64,000 nt of DNA from Parvularia atlantis (Eukaryota; Opisthokonta; Rotosphaerida): positions 53,670 through 117,669 of the forward strand of contig CALSCO010001030.1 of assembly GCA_943704415.1 (NCBI GenBank). The letters run 5' to 3'. A model generated the notes under the pieces. The model searched no databases. It was given only the letters and a program-made list of their open reading frames with translations, and was not told the origin of the DNA. A program made the position numbers and the translations under genes. Below, piece after piece: positions 41,142-50,260 of this stretch; position 1 is the first letter of the stretch, and each line of letters opens with the position of its first letter.

Positions 41142-44021
41142 ATGCGCGCAGCGCCACCGGCAGCGCCGCCCGTGATCGACGTGGACGGCGTCGAATTCGT
41201 CATGCTGTCGCGCGGCAGCGACGGGACGCCGGCGGCGGCGGCGGACGAGGCGCGCCCCGCGGCGGCCGGCAACCGCCTGCTGCGCGAGGAGACGCTGTGG
41301 AACGTCATGACCGAGGGCACGGTGCAGCACGACAGCGGTGCGCAGAGCCGCCGTCGTGCCGCGTGGCGACGCGCGCTCACGGGGGGCCGCAGAGACCGTG
41401 TACAAGGCCGAGGCCGAGCTGCGCCAGTACGCCGAGGTGTCGTTCAAGCCGGGCGTGTTTGTGAAGGAGCTCATAGGTGTGCCACCCTGCGAGATCTCGC
41501 TGCTGGCTGACGACCCGACGCGCGCGCCCCCGCCCGCAGCGCACACGTTCAACTCGGTGCCGCTCGTGCTCCTGTTTGACGGCTGGTACGGCGCGATCAA
41601 CCGCCGGTACATCCCGCGGCTCTGGGAGCCGTTCTTGTCGACCTTCTACGGGCAGTGGATCAACTTTCTGTGCTTCGTCGCGATCAACGTGCTGTACTGT
41701 GCGTGCGGCGCGTGGGGCGCGCCTCGACACATGCGCTCACACCCGCAGCGCAGTCCTGTACCGCCCGCCGCACATCGACGTGTGGGAGGTCGTGCTGCTG
41801 GACGTGCTGTGGGTCGCGCGCAACACGGTCGTCGCCACGAAGGTCCGCCGCCAGTCGCGCGCGGGCGCCGTCGCGCTGACGCCGGTCGCGCGCGCGCCCA
41901 GTATGCGTACACGTCGCGCCGCGAGCTAGACGACATGCACCGCAGCGTGCTGCCCGACGAGGTGCGCGCCCCGTCATCGTCGTTGCCGCCTCGTGCGCAC
42001 GCTCACGCACACGCGTACGCAGGTACACGTCAAGCGCCAGGTGCTCACGGGCTGGCTGCAGTTCTCGGACGCGCTCGGCGTGCGCGAGCTCGTCTACGCC
42101 AGTCTGCGCCAGGGCGTGGACCTGCGCGCGCTGCCGATCAAGCTCAACATGCACAAGCACGACTTCCGCGTCCTCTTTGACCTCGCCCTGGCCGACCGCG
42201 AGCGTCGCCCGGGTGAGGCGTACCTGGAGCCGATCGTGATGGATGTGCGTTGTGGCGCCTGACGCCGCCCGCGACGCTTACGCGCGAGCACGGACATCAT
42301 CAGGGCGACACCGTGCGGCAGATCCCGGCCTCGCTCCTGGCCAAGCAGCTGGTTTTCAGCAGGTGAGTGCCCGTGTGCGTGCCTGGGCGCGAGCACTGCT
42401 GACGGGGCACACAGCAAGAAGTACGTGCGCATGCCCTACATCGGCCACTTTGTGCGCTTCCTGGGCGTGCTCCAGGGCTTCCTGCCGGCGATCGTGCGGT
42501 GCGTGCAGCCGTGCCGGCCCGGCTTGCGCGGCGCTGACGCTGTGTGCGGCGCGTGCAGGGCCATCCAGGGCCTGCCGCCGATGGGCGGCACCGAGTGGCC
42601 GGCGTATGTGATCTTTGTGCTGCAGGTGTACCTGATCTTCTTCCTCGACTTTTCCAACTTTATGTTCCTGATCGCGGGCATCGTCGACTTCCGGCGGCGC
42701 CGGTGCGCCTGCGCGGCCCCGCTGCGCCGACCGGGCTGACAGACGTGCGCCGACAGCTACATCCACATGCAGCTGCTGCGCCTGTTTCAGGACGGCTACA
42801 TCCCGCCCAAGCTCGTTCTTGACAACCAAAAGGCGGAGCTGAAGCGGCGGCGTGAGCTGTTCCTCAACTCTCGCTCGGTGCGTCGCGCGCTCGACCGTGC
42901 CCAGCACAGCCGCTGATCGCCCAGCCGCAGCGCCTGAAGACCACGTCCTCGAACGGCTCGGGTGGCTCAAGCGGCTCGGGTAGCAAGGTCAGCCTGCAGC
43001 AGACCATGTCCGGGAGCGAAATGCCGGCGACCGTGATCGACATGAGTGCGTGACCTCGGCCGTTCGCGCGGGAACACACGCCACATGCTCACACGCGCGC
43101 GCCCGGGCAGCCGCTGTGCCGCTGGAGGGCTCCGAGTCGGATGTGCTGCAGAGCGCACACCTGCGTGTGGCGCCGGCGTCGGACGACAACCTGCTCAAGC
43201 GCAGCCCGTCCACCGTGAGCCAGGCCAAGTCGACCACCTCGTTCACGACGCGGCAGATGGACGACCTCGACGGCAGCATCACGCAGGGCCTCACGCTTGA
43301 CTTCACCGTGCCCGAGAATGTGCTGGCGTGGTCGCGGCTGCGTGACACGCTCTCGGTGCGTTGCAGCGCGCGCGCGCGCTCCGGGCGGGTGCCGTGCTGA
43401 CGCGTGCGCGCGTGTGCTCCGCAGGACTTTGGCATCATCTACAGCCGGCGCATCATCATCTACATCGGCCTGTTTCTGCTGGTGATGATCGGCTTTATGA
43501 TCTTCGTGATCGTCCAGGCGATCCTGGGCCTGCCCAACTCAATTTACGTGATCATGACCGTCGTGCTCTACCTGATCGTCATCTTCACTGTCTTCTTTGT
43601 CGTCATCGTCAGCGTCGGCGGCGACAGCAACTATCACCGGCAGTCGCAGGCCGTCGAGTTGCTGAAGCGCAAGGTGCGCTGCCTTTGTGCGCGTGTGCGT
43701 GCCTCCTTGTGTGCTCAGCGCCGCGCGTCAGGCCATGCTCGAGTACATCATCTCGTCGTCGGCTCACCGCCTGCCCGAGGCCACGGTCAACTCGTTTCGC
43801 CTCGCGATCGGGCTCGTCTCCTGCGTCGAGCAGCTCGTGCGCTCAGACAACGAGCTCAACGTGACGCGCATCCTCGGCTTCAACGCAGGCGGGCAGCTGG
43901 GCCGCGCGCTCGTGGTGCTCATTGTGGTGCGCCGCTGGCATGCCTGTTGGACCGTGCCGCTGACCGCGGCTGGCGTACGCCGCAGGGTGCGCTCGGCATC
44001 GCGCTGCGCGCGTACTTTTGA
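41142..44021 (+). CDS. Unrecognised multi-pass membrane protein
   Basis: I do not recognise this family. About 14 exons encode ~700 residues. The N-terminus (residues 1-65) is Ala-rich, followed by a soluble stretch (YKAEAELRQYAEVSFKPGVF, NSVPLVLLFDGWYGAINRRY). Hydrophobic segments: WINFLCFVAINVLYC; a weaker WEVVLLDVLWVARN; WPAYVIFVLQVYLIFFLDF joined to MFLIAGIVDF; IIIYIGLFLLVMIGFMIFVI; and IYVIMTVVLYLIVIFTVFFV. Long charged loops lie between them, including ELVYASLRQGVDLRALPIKL, LRLFQDGYIPPKLVLDNQKA and a Ser/Thr-rich cytosolic region before the last helix pair. The C-terminal domain is helical (SFRLAIGLVSCVEQLVRSDN). Five or six membrane spans are likely. Divergent from PIF1 with 82 bp between start codons. 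A TGTAA follows the stop. Confidence 0.7.
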
Positions 44022-44041: not shown

Positions 44042-44223
44042 AATACTGAGCTGTGTGTGAGAGTACTGCTTGTTTGACGAAGTTCCACCCGGGTAAGAAT
44101 TGCGTGTCACACACCAAATTTCCCGCTGACCATGAGCGCTGACCAGCCGGTCTTCCACACTGGCACTCACGCGCCGCACGCGCCACACGCGCCGCACAGG
44201 TGCTGCTTGCCTCTCCGCTCCCA

Positions 44224-47200
44224 ATGGACGTGCTCGCCGACGTGCCACTGCTGGCGGGCGTGTCGCGCCAGGTCCTGTTTGCCGTGGCCGTTGCCCTCGC
44301 GAGTCTCGCCTTTGTCGCGGTCGTGTTGAGCCGGGCGTGGCGCCGCCACCGCGCGCGCGTGCAGCTGCGTGAGGAGCTGCGCAGCACGCTGGCCGCCGCG
44401 CCCAAGCCGCGCAAGGAGGCGCCCGCCGCGCCCAAGCCGGCCGTGACGGCCGTGGCGAAGCCGGCCAAGCCGCCCGCGGCCGCCGTGGCGAAGCCGCCCA
44501 AGCCCGAGCCCCCGATGCCTGCCGCGGCCCCCGTGGCCGCCGAGCCGGCGAAGCCGAAGCCGAAGCCGAAGCCCGCCAAGGTCGCCAAGCCCGAGGTGGC
44601 CACCAGTAGCGCCCCCGCGCCCGCAGCCCCCGCCGCGGCCAAGCCCGTCTCGACGGAGGAGACCAAGCCCAAGGAGACCAAGCCCAAGGAGACCAAGCCC
44701 AAGGAGACCAAGCCCAACGGCGTACACGCGCCCGGCAGCGTGGCCGTCATTGTACCGCGCGAGCTCATCAGCATCCTGGAGACGCTCGACGCGGACCAGC
44801 TCGAGGCCGCGCTGAACGAGACGCTCGCGCGGGTGCGTGGCGCCACGCTTGTGCGCCGGTGAGCGCGGCGCTCACGTCGCACGTGCGTGAACCAGATCGA
44901 GGCGCCATCCGACTGGGAGCACGTGAGCAAGGTCAAGGCCGAGCGGGTGCCGTCGGCGCTGCAGGTGCGGAGGCGCGTGCTTGCTGCGTGGACGCGGCTC
45001 AACCGCTCGCCGCAACAGAACAGGCTTAAGGTGGCCGAGGACGAGATCGCCGACCTCAGGAAAGCGGTGGAGCTGTCGCACACGCAGATCGAGGGCTTTA
45101 AGACGCAGAAGGACCGTGCCGAGCGTGACCTGCGCCACCGCGAGGCCGCGTTGCAGGTGCAACGAGCCGCGGCCTGCGCGCGCACTGACCGCCCCGCGCG
45201 CGAGCAGGAGACGGCCAGCAAGCACAGCAGCGAGTTGCAGACGCTCAAGGCGGCCAACGAGACGCTCGCGAAGCAGCTGCGCGAGGTGCATCGGGGTGCA
45301 CCCGACTTGCCGCTACTGGGCGGCTCATGCACTGCACGCAGGCCCTTGCCCCGACCGCGAGCCAGCCATCGCCGGCCGAGCCGTCGGCCAAGCTTGCGAC
45401 GCTGCTTGCCGAGATTGCCAAGCTTGAGGGCCAGAATGCGCAGCTGTTGCGGAACCTCGAGCTGCACGTGCGTGGCGTCCGCGTCGGCACGGTTCGCTGC
45501 CACTGACGCGTTCATGCGGACGTGCGCCAGAACAAGCAGCACGCAGACAGCGTCAAGACGCTGCAGGAGTCAATGGTGCGGCTGCCCGTGACGGCCCGGT
45601 GGCGGTGCCTGACGCCGCGCCCGTGCCCGCAGGAGAACATCGTCAACCAGAACGCAGCCGAGATCGCGCGCATGAAGGCCGCGGTCAAGGATGCGCAGGA
45701 CCGCGCGCAGGGCGTGATGGAGGCCGAGAAGCAGCAGCGCCTAGCGGCCACGGCGGCCAAGGCGGAACTGCATGTGCGCGGGCGCGTCTGGATGCCGGTG
45801 CGACTGACTGTGTTCGCTCTTCGCAGACCGTGCAGGCGCAACTTCAGCAGGTTCAAGCGGCCGTCCAGCAGGCGCACGCGGCAGCGGCGGCGAGCAAGCA
45901 GAGCGAGGATGCGCTCGTGCGCGCGATTGCGGTGCGTGCGCCCATCGAGCACTTGCCGCGTCCGCTCACGCGAGGCATAGACGCTCAAGCAGGAGCTAGC
46001 GGCCAGCGAGACGGCCCTGGCGCAGGCACGCGCGGCGCCCGCGAGTGTGCCCAAAGACATCGCGACTGCGGGTGCGCCGCCAGGCGGCGCGAGGTCCCCG
46101 CAGCCTCACCAAGCCCTCCTTCGCGCAGAGCACCTCGCGCACGCGCAGCAGGAGATCAAGCAGCTGCAGGCTGAGGCCGCGGAGCTGCGGCTGAAGCTGG
46201 CTGACGCGACGCACGCCGCGAGCAAGGCGGCCGCCGCGCCCGCGCCCACGCCTGCGCCTGCCCCTGTCGACGTGCACGCGCTGCCCGAGGTGCAGCAGCT
46301 CAAGCAGGCGCTATCCAAGGCGTCGGTCGATGTCGAGCAGCTGCAGAAGCAGGTCAAGGACGTGACGCAGGCGGCGGCGCAGCGCGCACAGGGCGCCGAG
46401 AAGACGGTGCGTGCAGCGGTGGCGCGTCGCGGTCGCGGGTGGCAGCTCACCGGCGCCGCCAGTCGTACGCGTACACGCAGATGCTGGTCGCCCAGCTCGG
46501 CGACCTGGCCGAGGAGCGCAACGAGCTGCGGCGCACGGTCGAGACGTACGTCAAGGGGCAGCAGCAGGCGGCGGCGGCGGCGAGCGGGCCAGCCAAGGAC
46601 GACGTGAAGAAGAAGTCCACGCCTGCACCGGCCCCGACCGACGCGGGCGTGCGTTGGGCGTGCGCTGCATGGCGCGCGCGGATGGGCGCTGAGAGGCGTG
46701 TGCCGGCCGCAGACGCTGGCCTACATGCAGACGCTCGTGATGCGCGTCGCCGATCTGGACGAGGAGCGCCGCGAGCTGCTGAGGACGATCGACGGCAAGG
46801 GCGCCAAGCCGGGAAAGGCCGTCGCCCCCGCGCCCGCCCCCACACCGACGCCCGCCGCCGCCCCGCTCAGCAAGGAGCACCTTGACCACAACGTGCGGCG
46901 CGCGGGGCACGGGCGCTCCCAGGCGGCTCACGCGCATGCGCCGCGCCGCGCCGCGCCGCACAGCTCTATGTCTATAACCAGCAGCTCATCCTGAAGCTGG
47001 CCGAGTCGCTCGAGGCGCAGCAGCAGCTCGAGGTGACGCTGGCCAGGCGGGGCGAGGCGGCGAGCAAGCGCGCGCCCGCGCCCGCGCAGCTGACGATCGC
47101 CGAGGAGGGCGCGGCCGGCCCGGCTCCCAATGGCACGGCTGCCGAGGAGCACGAGGAGGACTTTGAGCTGTTTGGCGACGACGACGACGACGACGAGGAG

Positions 47201-47785
47201 GTGCGGCGACGGCAGAGGCGTCTGCCCTGCCGCGTTTGACCGCGCGCCTAGGTCGACGTCGAGGCTGAGAAGCTCAAGGCCAAGCGGCTCGAGAAGTACA
47301 ACGCCAAGAAGGCCAATAGTGCGCGGTAGGCGCGCGCGCCGTCCGCTGCATTCACGCGCGCGCGTCTTAGAACCCTTGGTGATCGCCGAGTTGTCGCTCT
47401 TGCTCGACGTCAAGCCGTGGGACGACGAGACCGGTGCGCGGCGCGATGCTTCTGTGCGCGCGCGCGCACGCGCGCAGTGGGCTCATGCACCGGCCGCAGA
47501 TATGAAGGAGCTCGAGGAGGGCGTGCGCGCGATCCAGACCGACGGCCTGCTGTGGGGCCCCTGTTCGTTGTCGTGTCGCGCGATTCCGCGTGAGTGTGCC
47601 GCGCTGACTGCCGCCTTCGCCCCGCCGCAGCCAAGCTTGTGCCGGTCGCGTTCGGCATGAAGAAGCTGCAGATCACGGCCACGGTCGAGGACGGCAAGGT
47701 CTCGACCGACTGGCTCAAGGAGCAGATCACGGCGCTCGAGGACCACGTGCAGTCGATGGACATCGTCGCGTTCGACACGATCTGA
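44224..47785 (+). CDS. Membrane-anchored coiled-coil protein fused to an eEF1B (EF-1 beta/delta) nucleotide-exchange domain
   Basis: About 870 residues in ~16 exons. Residues ~11-32 form a signal-anchor helix ([20 protein letters not shown]) followed by RAWRRHR. Residues ~60-170 are Lys/Pro/Ala-rich and include four KETKP repeats (44656-44715). A long coiled coil follows ([59 protein letters not shown]), with three tandem modules that start [40 protein letters not shown] and [20 protein letters not shown]. After an acidic [15 protein letters not shown] segment comes the complete eEF1B exchange domain: [76 protein letters not shown] and the ending [13 protein letters not shown]. The domain recharges eEF1A with GTP. 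The N-terminal architecture resembles kinectin/p180. No gap exceeds an ordinary intron. Confidence 0.85.
44656..44715 (+). repeat. Four 15-nt tandem repeats encoding (K/E)ETKP
   Basis: Units at 44656, 44671, 44686 and 44701, the last three identical (AAGGAGACCAAGCCC). They lie in the Lys/Pro-rich segment after the membrane anchor; such basic repeats in p180 are associated with ribosome binding, which is only an analogy here. Confidence 0.9.
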
Positions 47786-47837: not shown

Positions 47838-48126
47838 CTAGCTGCCGCCCTCGCCGGGCGTGGACGCGGCCGCCTGCAGCCGCGCCGCAGCCTCGGCCAT
47901 CTGTGCGTGACGGTGCTTGCGTGAGCGCATCGTCTCTGCCCGCGAGCGCATCCGCGCACACCTTGATGAGGTCGCGCTGCGTCTCGGCGGCCAGCGCCCG
48001 CACGCGCGCCGCCTCCTGCCGCAGCAGCGCGCGCTCGTCGCGCACCTGCTCCAGCACCGCGTCGACCCGCCCGGCCGCGCCGAGCAGCGCGAGCTGCCGC
48101 TGTCGCGCCGCGACAAACTCATCCAT
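47838..48126 (-). CDS. Small coiled-coil protein, unrecognised (75 aa)
   Basis: Two exons (48126-47962 and 47900-47838) joined by a 61-nt GTGTGC...CACAG intron with CTCAC before the acceptor. The product is one amphipathic helix: it begins MDEFVAARQRQLALLGAAG and continues with Arg/Glu/Ala-rich heptads (RDERALLRQEAARVRALAAE) and MAEAAARLQAAAST before a Gly-rich end. It could be a subunit of a small coiled-coil complex (for example BLOC, HAUS or kinetochore), but nothing in it decides. The start lies 28 bp from divergent UTP18, and the intron matches the local consensus, which supports a real gene. Confidence 0.55.
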
Positions 48127-48154: not shown

Positions 48155-48460
48155 GCCATGCTGCGCAACGGCCACGTGGCACGCCAGCGTGCAGGAGGCG
48201 ACGCGGCCGCGGCGGCGTGGCTCGAGGCGGCCGTGCTCGGCGTGGACGCGGGCGCGGCGTTGCGGCGCGCCAAGAGCCGGCCGGCCTCATCGTCACGTGC
48301 TGCGGCGGCGGCGGACGACGGCGAGGACGAGCGCGCGCTCGCGGTGGCCGGGTTTGTCGTCGACAAGCGGCCGGCGCGCGGCAACGCGGACGCGGAGGAC
48401 GACGACGGCGAGTCGCCGTTTGCGCACTTTGACCACGCGGCACTCGACGACGACGACGAG

Positions 48461-48496
<36 letters not shown>

Positions 48497-50260
48497 CGCG
48501 CACGACCAGTCAAGCGCCCGCGCGGGCGCGACGAGGCCGATGGAGCGGCCGCCGTGCACGGCTGGGCGGGCGAGCGGCCGCCTGTGTGGGTCGATGAGGA
48601 CGACCGCCGCGTGTCGATCGACATCGCCGCCGTGCGGCGCCTGCGCAAGCTGCGCGCCAATGAGCAGCAGACCGTCGTCAACGGCGTCGAGTACCAGGCC
48701 AAGCTGCGGCAGCAGTGCGTGCGGCAGCGGCGATGGGTGGCAAGCCGGCTCACGTACGACGCAGGCTGGCCAAGCTGCGCTCGCACCAGTGCTGGACCGC
48801 GGCGTTTGAGGCCGCGCGGCAGGAGCGGCTGCGCGAGGGCGCGCAGGACGACGGTGCGCGCAAGCCCGTGCCGGTCGCGCTGCGACGTGCTCACGGCCTC
48901 GCAGAGATCACGGTGCTGCTGTCGCGCGCGGGCAAGCTCACGCGCAAGTCGGCGCTGCTGCCGCAGACGGCGATCGACATTGCGCGCGTGCGCGACCTGA
49001 ACGAGTCGGCGCGCACCGAGGCGTCGATTGAGGCCATACACTTCCACCCGAGCGGCCAGCTCGCCCTCACGGCTGGGCTGGATAAGACGCTGCACCTGTT
49101 CCAGGTACGGGCGCGCGCATCAGCGTCGCACGCACGGCGCTTCTCAGCGGCGGCGTGCAGGTCGACGGCCGCGCCAATGAGCAGGTGCAGAGCGTGCACT
49201 TCCAGGACCTGCCGGTGCACTCGGCCGCGTTCACGCCCGATGGGCGGTACATTTTCGCGTCGGGGCGGCGGCGCTTCTTCTACGCGTACGACGTCGAGGC
49301 GGGCACGGTCGAGCGCGTGCCGTCGATCGCCGGTGCGCGCGCTGTGCCCGCCCCTGTGCGCAGCGGTGACCGTCGTGCGCGCACGCAGGCCACACCGAGA
49401 AGAGCCTCGAGTCGATGGTGGTCTCGCCGTCGGGCGAGTACCTCGCGTTCATGGTGCGTGCGCCGCGCGGGTGAGGTCGCGCCCGCTCACCGCGCTGCAG
49501 GGCAACCAGGGCCTGGTGATGCTCGTGTCGACGCTCACGCGCCAGTGGATCGCCGACCTGCGCATGAACGGCTCGGTGCGGAGCATGGCCTTCTCGCGCG
49601 ACGGGCGGTCGCTCTACACCTTTGGCGGTGCGCGCTGTTGAGGTGGCCGCGCACGGGGCGCTCGCTTACCCTGCCCGGCGCGCGCAGGCGAGGGCGACGT
49701 GTACGTGTGGGACGTCGGGCAGCGGCGGTGCGTGCACAAATTCCACGACGACGGGTGCATCCACGGGACGTCGCTGGCCGTGTCGGCCGACGGGCAGTAC
49801 ATCGCGTGCGGGTGTGTGTGTCGGCTCGCGATGGCCAGTACGGTGCAGCTGACCGCGACACAGCTCCGATACGGGCGTCGTCAACTTGTACACGCACCAG
49901 GCCGCGAGCGCGTCCGACTTGCCCAAGCCCGAGCGCTCGTTCATGAACCTGACGACGAGCGTGAACCTGCTCGGGTTCAACAACGACGAGCAGGTGCTCG
50001 CGATGGGCAGCAAGCAGAAGCGCGACGCGTTCAAGCTGGTGCGGCGCGCGCGCACACGCCACACGCGCACCCCTTGACACGCGCTGCGCGTGCAGGCGCA
50101 CGTGGCCTCGCGCACCGTCTTCGCCAACTGGCCCACGGGCAACACGCCAATCCACCACCCGAGCAGCTTTGCGTTCTCGCCTCACGACGGCTACCTCTGC
50201 GTGGCGAACGACCGCGGGCGCGCCCTGCTGTACCGTGTGAACCACTATGAGACGGCGTGA
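48155..50260 (+). CDS. UTP18: UTP18, WD40 subunit of the U3 snoRNP / SSU processome
   Basis: Nucleolar UTP-B subunit needed for 18S rRNA processing. About nine exons. The N-terminal ~190 residues are charged with a polyaspartate run (48445-48496) and a basic patch (KRPRGRDEA). Then PPVWVDEDDRRVSIDIAAVR, RLRKLRANEQQTVVNGVEYQ, SIEAIHFHPSGQLALTAGLD followed by KTLHLFQ, the WD repeats VQSVHFQDLPVHSAAFTPDG, FFYAYDVEAGTVERVPSIAG, EKSLESMVVSPSGEYLAF, QWIADLRMNGSVRSMAFSRD, GDVYVWDVGQRRCVHKFHDD and GTSLAVSADGQYIACGSDTG, and the family ending FANWPTGNTPI plus SFAFSPHDGYLCVAND. The correspondence with yeast and human UTP18 runs along the whole C-terminal domain. Convergent with the amidohydrolase gene, 25 nt between stops. 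Confidence 0.95.
48445..48496 (+). repeat. GAC triplet run encoding polyaspartate in UTP18
   Basis: About 17 GAC codons interrupted once by GAG. Acidic runs at this place are common in nucleolar WD40 proteins; the near-pure GAC codon use suggests slippage expansion. Confidence 0.9.

Follow-up and report, generated by a model that had tools for sequence, protein, structure and literature searches.

An eEF1B exchange domain at the end of a predicted membrane-anchored coiled-coil protein in Parvularia atlantis

The reason why part of the elongation machinery is placed at the endoplasmic reticulum (ER) is unsettled. EEF1D co-precipitates the ER proteins kinectin (KTN1) and p180 (RRBP1), and the EEF1B complex is kept on the ER by exon 5 of EEF1D; work in mouse and human cells shows kinectin to be bound via the helix of this exon, and RRBP1 co-precipitation is likewise exon-dependent (PMC13231004, available part). 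In the 64,000 nucleotides (nt) of Parvularia atlantis DNA analysed here (contig CALSCO010001030.1; hereafter the window), one predicted gene encodes a membrane anchor, coiled coils and an eEF1B guanine-nucleotide-exchange (GNE) domain in a single polypeptide, termed below the fusion protein. What would an eEF1B domain do in such a protein? We find that it is a full-length relative of the organism's own ordinary eEF1B in which residues at the nucleotide and Mg2+ pocket are replaced, and we lean, with real reservations, to a membrane-held eEF1A tether impaired in exchange, with the ordinary eEF1B doing the recharging.

A predicted gene of 17 exons

At 44224-47785 on the forward strand, 17 exons join in matching phase into one predicted gene of 876 amino acids (Table 1), in line with the uninterrupted exon series described by the initial annotation. 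The 16 introns are of the local type: they are 49-71 nt long, their donors are GTGC in 15 of 16 (GTGCG in 13 of 16, with GTTCG in the remaining one) and all 16 acceptors are AG. Upstream of the start codon lies an in-frame TGA (44140-44142), with no further ATG in between. Because the window has a GC content of 70% and open frames are therefore cheap, we checked the frame with a codon score, for which 1076 codons taken from other genes in this genome served as the training set; ordinary eEF1B was among them, so the score of exons 14-17 depends partly on the training set. The proposed frame ranks first of six in 16 of the 17 exons, and the miss is exon 8, where it falls narrowly behind a minus-strand frame (0.04 vs 0.11). 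Introns 2, 3, 6, 9 and 15 (5 of 16) would each, if retained singly, meet no early stop, and the exon borders there thus depend on the local splice pattern. The five exons that bear the eEF1B part are open and in frame on joining, a property that model construction had itself demanded. The upstream same-strand gene runs to its stop at 44021 and a small opposite-strand reading ends at 47838; the fusion gene thus fills the slot between them, with nothing else seen in it.

The N-terminus resembles a membrane anchor. Residues 17-35 form the sole strongly hydrophobic stretch (mean hydropathy 2.95; the maximum past residue 60 is 1.32) and are followed by RAWRRHR, so that by the positive-inside rule the N-terminus is predicted to be outside and the remainder cytosolic. 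Residues 61-165 contain 28 Pro, 27 Ala and 21 Lys. Both the anchor and this Lys/Pro-rich part had been recognised before and stand, as does the presence of a coiled coil; its length, put at about 500 residues, proved shorter. With 1000 shuffles per segment, heptad periodicity is strong (p<=0.003) at residues 223-301, 313-456 and 521-602, about 305 residues together, and was not found by the same shuffling at residues 462-504.

Exons 11, 12 and 13 each contribute a similar helix module followed by a linker. Each pairwise score among the three modules was reached by 0 of 2000 shuffles, and the DNA of exon 12 is 71% identical across 83 nt to exon 11 plus its acceptor (repeat D2). Their heptad periodicity is weak in the first two (p 0.034 and p 0.043) and absent from the third (p 0.585), and a comparison of exons 11-13 with solved structures (PDB) gave a best E of 0.25, at chance level. 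This tandem series (46463-47200) suggests that the protein grew via exon duplication. The fusion junction lies inside exon 13, where module copy 3 and the start of the acidic region stand on the same exon, and of all the sequence evidence this speaks most strongly for a genuine fusion. No second genomic copy of the coil part or of the exon 11-13 modules was found, since each of the 17 genome matches lies either in the fusion locus or, where the eEF1B part is what matches, on the contig of the ordinary eEF1B gene.

Table 1. Exons of the fusion gene and two substituted sites, numbered from the first letter of the window
Feature	Position	Strand	Content
Exon 1	44224-44832	+	Start Met, predicted anchor (residues 17-35), basic flank, Lys/Pro/Ala-rich 61-165, then residues 166-203
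Exons 2-10, span	44896-46406	+	Pro-poor heptad-periodic coil: 223-301, 313-456, 521-560 (part of 521-602)
Exon 2	44896-44964	+	
Exon 3	45019-45156	+	
Exon 4	45208-45285	+	
Exon 5	45342-45467	+	
Exon 6	45531-45575	+	
Exon 7	45633-45773	+	
Exon 8	45827-45931	+	
Exon 9	45981-46071	+	
Exon 10	46129-46406	+	
Exon 11	46463-46648	+	Helix module copy 1 (SYAYTQMLV..) and linker
Exon 12	46713-46892	+	Helix module copy 2 (TLAYMQTLV..) and Pro/Ala linker
Exon 13	46964-47200	+	Helix module copy 3 (LYVYNQQLI..), linker, start of eEF1B acidic region
Exon 14	47252-47318	+	Remainder of acidic region; ordinary copy without the preceding intron
Exons 15-17, span	47371-47785	+	GNE domain; intron before each at the ordinary-gene position
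Exon 15	47371-47433	+	
Exon 16	47500-47562	+	
Exon 17	47631-47785	+	
Glu-Leu for Lys-Ser (yeast K120, S121)	47388-47393	+	Codons GAG TTG; K and S in 240/240 listed homologues
Asp-Thr for Asn-Lys (Lys = yeast K205)	47774-47779	+	Codons GAC ACG; N and K each in 239/240 listed homologues

The exchange domain and its source

The C-terminal part belongs to eEF1B: Pfam EF1_GNE matches residues 793-874 (E=1.2e-32, 112.3 bits vs a cut-off of 20.8) and EF-1_beta_acid matches residues 751-781 under its cut-off (E=4.1e-5, 24.3 bits vs 25.7). The C-terminal residues read as first reported. A GST-like N-terminus was not found in the fusion protein (no Pfam match at E<=1), so that the normal way of entering the eEF1B complex looks closed to it.

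Is the domain complete, as the initial annotation had it? In length it is; its catalytic residues are lost. The GNE domains of the fusion and the ordinary copy differ at 14 of 93 positions. We compared them with 240 listed GNE homologues, comprising the best 120 of 846 matches and the best 120 of 7728 and consisting mostly of animal or environmental sequences, and found that five substitutions in the fusion fall at near-invariant columns: K to E and S to L (the original residue in 240 of 240 homologues each), E to K (238), N to D and K to T (239 each). Alignment to yeast eEF1B-alpha identifies three of the replaced residues as K120, S121 and K205, the last by position, as the printed alignment ends one residue before K205 and the final two residues were paired in this way. 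The ordinary eEF1B keeps the equivalents of all three. In yeast, K205 reaches into the Mg2+ site, and mutating it is lethal (PMC5806593, available part); K120-S121-I122 lies at the nucleotide pocket, and the KSI mutant is alive, with slower growth and protein synthesis and higher fidelity (PMC1885216, available part).

At the 38 columns conserved at 99% or above, the fusion departs at five, a number exceeded by one of the 240 listed homologues, and the ordinary copy has no departure; at the 29 columns conserved at 90-99%, departures are about equal (nine in the fusion, eight in the ordinary copy). The AFGMKKLQ stretch of the fusion retains its Phe, which we take to be yeast F163. As read here, the GNE domain is full length but stripped of the residues where exchange chemistry occurs. 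With the catalytic Lys (K205) and two further nucleotide-pocket residues (K120 and S121) replaced, recharging of eEF1A by the fusion protein is unlikely, and the idea that eEF1A is recharged by it on the ER, put forward when the gene was first noticed, loses its footing.

Where did this domain come from? The sole other GNE match in the genome is on contig C212, in a separate, ordinary eEF1B gene of the kind that had been proposed as something to look for. Its acidic region scores above the Pfam cut-off, its GNE domain ends AAFNKI, and its N-terminus is GST-like by eye, with weak Pfam matches to Arc1p_N_like and GST_C_6, both under cut-off. Three GNE introns have identical positions in the fusion and ordinary genes, and the fusion's eEF1B domain looks like a duplicate of the ordinary gene's 3' half. 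The DNA of exons 15, 16 and 17 is identical to the ordinary copy at 56/63, 59/63 and 142/155 positions, respectively. For the three paired introns, similarity was reached by 236 of 1000 shuffles in one pair (no better than shuffled), by 8 of 1000 in another (slightly better) and by 0 of 1000 in the third (clear similarity). In a tree of 39 rows (built after leaving out three chosen rows that lacked the trimming motif; yeast sits on a long branch), the fusion and the ordinary copy are sisters with moderate support (91/75), separate from the rows taken as EEF1D, and the fusion branch is about four times the ordinary one (0.27 vs 0.065). Among the matches listed, the closest eEF1B sequences are environmental, and the nearest neighbours in the tree are the environmental rows P0121, P0122, P0123, P0133 and P0135.

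The ordinary gene itself seemingly has its start codon split by an intron (AT then G, by eye), its donors are GTGC-type, and its neighbour on C212 reads by eye as an ING-type PHD-finger protein.

The genome also holds eEF1A (C464) and eEF1B-gamma (C550). Over the 210 residues that were compared, the eEF1A is without sign of decay (E=1.4e-112 against an EF1A1 chain), and its alignment to EF1A1 and to yeast chains continues across what is presumably an insert typical of opisthokonts. In other lineages, EFL replacing eEF1A accompanies eEF1B decay (PMC3938643, available part). Two other EF-1alpha-like matches, on C535 and C397, were judged by eye to be HBS1-like and eRF3-like; weaker EF-1alpha-like matches lie beyond them, and EFL may be among these.

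Known systems, relatives and neighbouring genes

The layout recalls kinectin and p180, in which an N-terminal single membrane span and cytosolic coils bring an eEF1B exchange subunit to the membrane, and the literature on the kinectin link agrees with the comparison first drawn for this locus. In mouse cells and tissues, losing the kinectin-binding exon of EEF1D shifts the EEF1B complex off the ER, and exon loss in mouse leaves global translation without significant change; in earlier work cited there, breaking the kinectin link reduced membrane-protein expression (PMC13231004, available part). The kinectin-like features of the fusion protein are hydropathy and heptad periodicity, with a predicted topology. 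The systems differ in that kinectin and p180 are separate proteins joined to EEF1D non-covalently by the exon 5 helix, whereas the fusion is one predicted polypeptide, and in that the fusion has lost its exchange residues.

The likeness to kinectin/p180 is one of layout only, with no sequence relationship found. Pfam PF05104 (kinectin/p180) gave no match at E<=1 in the whole fusion protein, nor at E<=10 in residues 1-272, where the best Pfam match is Rab11-FIP3 on the coil at 223-269 (E=0.0061, 17.3 bits vs a cut-off of 31.9). For residues 160-750, the scoring of 7995 candidates yielded no homologue at E<=1e-3. A natural fusion of the two mammalian partners, as the initial annotation proposed, finds no support in these searches. 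The genome itself gave no match to kinectin/p180, a search that is uninformative because 14 control genomes also gave none.

Among eEF1B proteins, the fusion shares a GNE domain and a probable acidic region with eEF1B-alpha/beta (EEF1B2-type), the genome's own copy being the closest to it, and differs in having an anchor and coils in place of the GST-like N-terminus and in the replacement of the catalytic Lys. Vertebrate EEF1D and its long isoforms also carry a long N-terminal extension ahead of the acidic region and GNE domain; the N-terminal region of EEF1D holds a leucine zipper (PMC13231004, available part). Of the best 120 of 846 matches, which are long and mostly EEF1D, one (P0044) just reaches a hydropathy of 1.92 near its N-terminus and none comes near the 2.95 of the fusion; NK[IV] is retained in 119 of these 120, and in the tree the closest partner of the fusion is the ordinary copy from its own genome. 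Fusions of eEF1B do have a precedent: an 'apparent eEF1B-kinase protein fusion' is described in Thecamonas trahens (PMC3938643, available part). Judged by that description, it too is a protist eEF1B domain joined to an unrelated part, the partner there being a kinase and not an anchored coiled coil.

Does the same protein occur elsewhere? Searched with residues 740-876, the same layout was not found by names, Pfam domains or hydropathy among the best 120 of 846 matches, mostly vertebrate EEF1D; a weaker orthologue may lie beyond these 120. Viral contigs searched with the fusion gave five stretches that matched the pattern, with 0 confirmed, and genome contigs searched with the ordinary copy gave 230 pattern matches, again with 0 confirmed. 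The literature searched, with subscription papers mostly outside the search, yielded no anchored coiled-coil eEF1B protein. The view that no protein with this layout has been described therefore held among the 120 best matches, in the coil search and in that literature. In several fish entries (P0089, P0091, P0094, P0101, P0103, P0105, P0108, P0115), phenylalanyl-tRNA synthetase beta domains share a predicted protein with an eEF1B domain, either as real fusions or as joins made in annotation.

The neighbours of the fusion gene were read in part by eye. Upstream, at 43401-44021, pieces joined by eye encode a membrane protein that has multiple hydrophobic segments (best Pfam E=0.058). Downstream, a small convergent two-exon reading (48126-47838, minus strand; 75 amino acids joined by eye) stops 52 bases away from where the fusion gene ends, and a Pfam search with it gave a best E of only 0.15. 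The gene that follows has a long run of Asp codons at 48440-48500, and its later exons match WD40 repeats. Elsewhere in the assembly, contig C530 (13,093 bp) is AT-rich, in contrast to the 70% GC of the window; it carries a bacterial-type small-subunit ribosomal RNA (the sole pattern match to such an RNA), two tRNAs and an rps13-like reading, and it reads by eye as probably mitochondrial.

What the fused domain may do

We suggest that the 3' half of the eEF1B gene of this organism was copied together with its introns and joined to the end of a gene for a membrane-anchored coiled-coil protein, and that the two parts are now presumably expressed as a single transcript. The N-terminal helix would insert in a membrane so that the N-terminus lies outside and everything after the helix is cytosolic, given the positive charges that follow it; the coils would dimerise and extend outward; and the C-terminal GNE domain would meet eEF1A. 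As the residues that enter the nucleotide and Mg2+ pocket of eEF1A are gone, the domain probably has no useful exchange rate and may serve as a tether or reservoir that keeps eEF1A near the membrane, plausibly the ER, with recharging left to the ordinary eEF1B. The choice of the ER over another membrane is a guess by analogy. In its most specific form, the proposal that a pseudo-exchange-factor, descended from the organism's eEF1B but disarmed at the nucleotide pocket, tethers eEF1A to the ER, as the covalent counterpart of mammalian kinectin-EEF1D binding, is possible but doubtful.

Several points weigh against the tether. The fusion gene and its protein are known here from the DNA sequence of one assembly, and within our searches no orthologue was seen in other species. 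The charge reversal at K120 could weaken the predicted binding to eEF1A as well as exchange. The ordinary copy also departs at columns conserved at 95% or above, at five vs the fusion's 11. Across 115 codons, synonymous divergence (dS) between fusion and ordinary copy is 0.20 and nonsynonymous divergence (dN) is 0.09, and the dN/dS of 0.47, computed for this single pair, is taken as high for so conserved a domain. Finally, the changes in the fusion hit near-invariant columns about as often as others (5 of 14 changes; 38 of 93 columns), a pattern that also fits plain relaxation.

These last two points belong equally to the main rival, which we consider somewhat unlikely: that the anchored coiled-coil part works and the acquired eEF1B domain is a passenger, drifting without an eEF1A-related job. 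The roughly fourfold longer fusion branch also favours decay, as does the similarity still detectable in two of the three paired introns, which leaves room for a duplication of no great age. Such a domain would nevertheless have to have kept the open frame and splice sites of all five eEF1B-bearing exons and an acidic region that is still recognisable, slightly below the cut-off; also against decay, the split of the two copies in the tree (with moderate support) is about as deep as several environmental eEF1B sequences. The divergence pattern fits either a new function minus exchange or slow decay.

A working membrane-bound exchange factor, recharging eEF1A at the ER surface despite its substitutions, would account for the full length of the domain and its strong Pfam match, for the retained Phe of AFGMKKLQ and for the parallel with mammals, in which the ER does carry the EEF1B complex (PMC13231004, available part). 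We consider it improbable, with Thr at the K205 equivalent, Glu at K120 and Leu at S121, given that mutation of K205 kills yeast (PMC5806593, available part) and that the yeast KSI mutant grows and makes protein more slowly, yet lives (PMC1885216, available part). Very improbable, in our view, is a wrong gene model, with the anchor-coil and eEF1B parts on separate transcripts or the anchor exon from elsewhere: the exon chain was read from DNA alone, five introns can be retained without an early stop and the codon score of exon 8 is weak, but exon 13 holds both module copy 3 and the acidic region, similar modules link exons 11-13, exon 1 closes in frame on a local-type donor, and no gap of the intergenic type was seen inside the slot.

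The observation reported in the initial annotation is thereby confirmed and its interpretation partly supported. The novelty of the tether that we favour is that a familiar domain stands in a new setting and has probably lost the activity for which it is known. If this is true, an eEF1B domain became covalently linked to a membrane protein and its exchange residues were lost afterwards, which would suggest that selection acted on position or binding and not on local recharging. The fusion domain also offers a natural set of changes in the nucleotide pocket of eEF1B.

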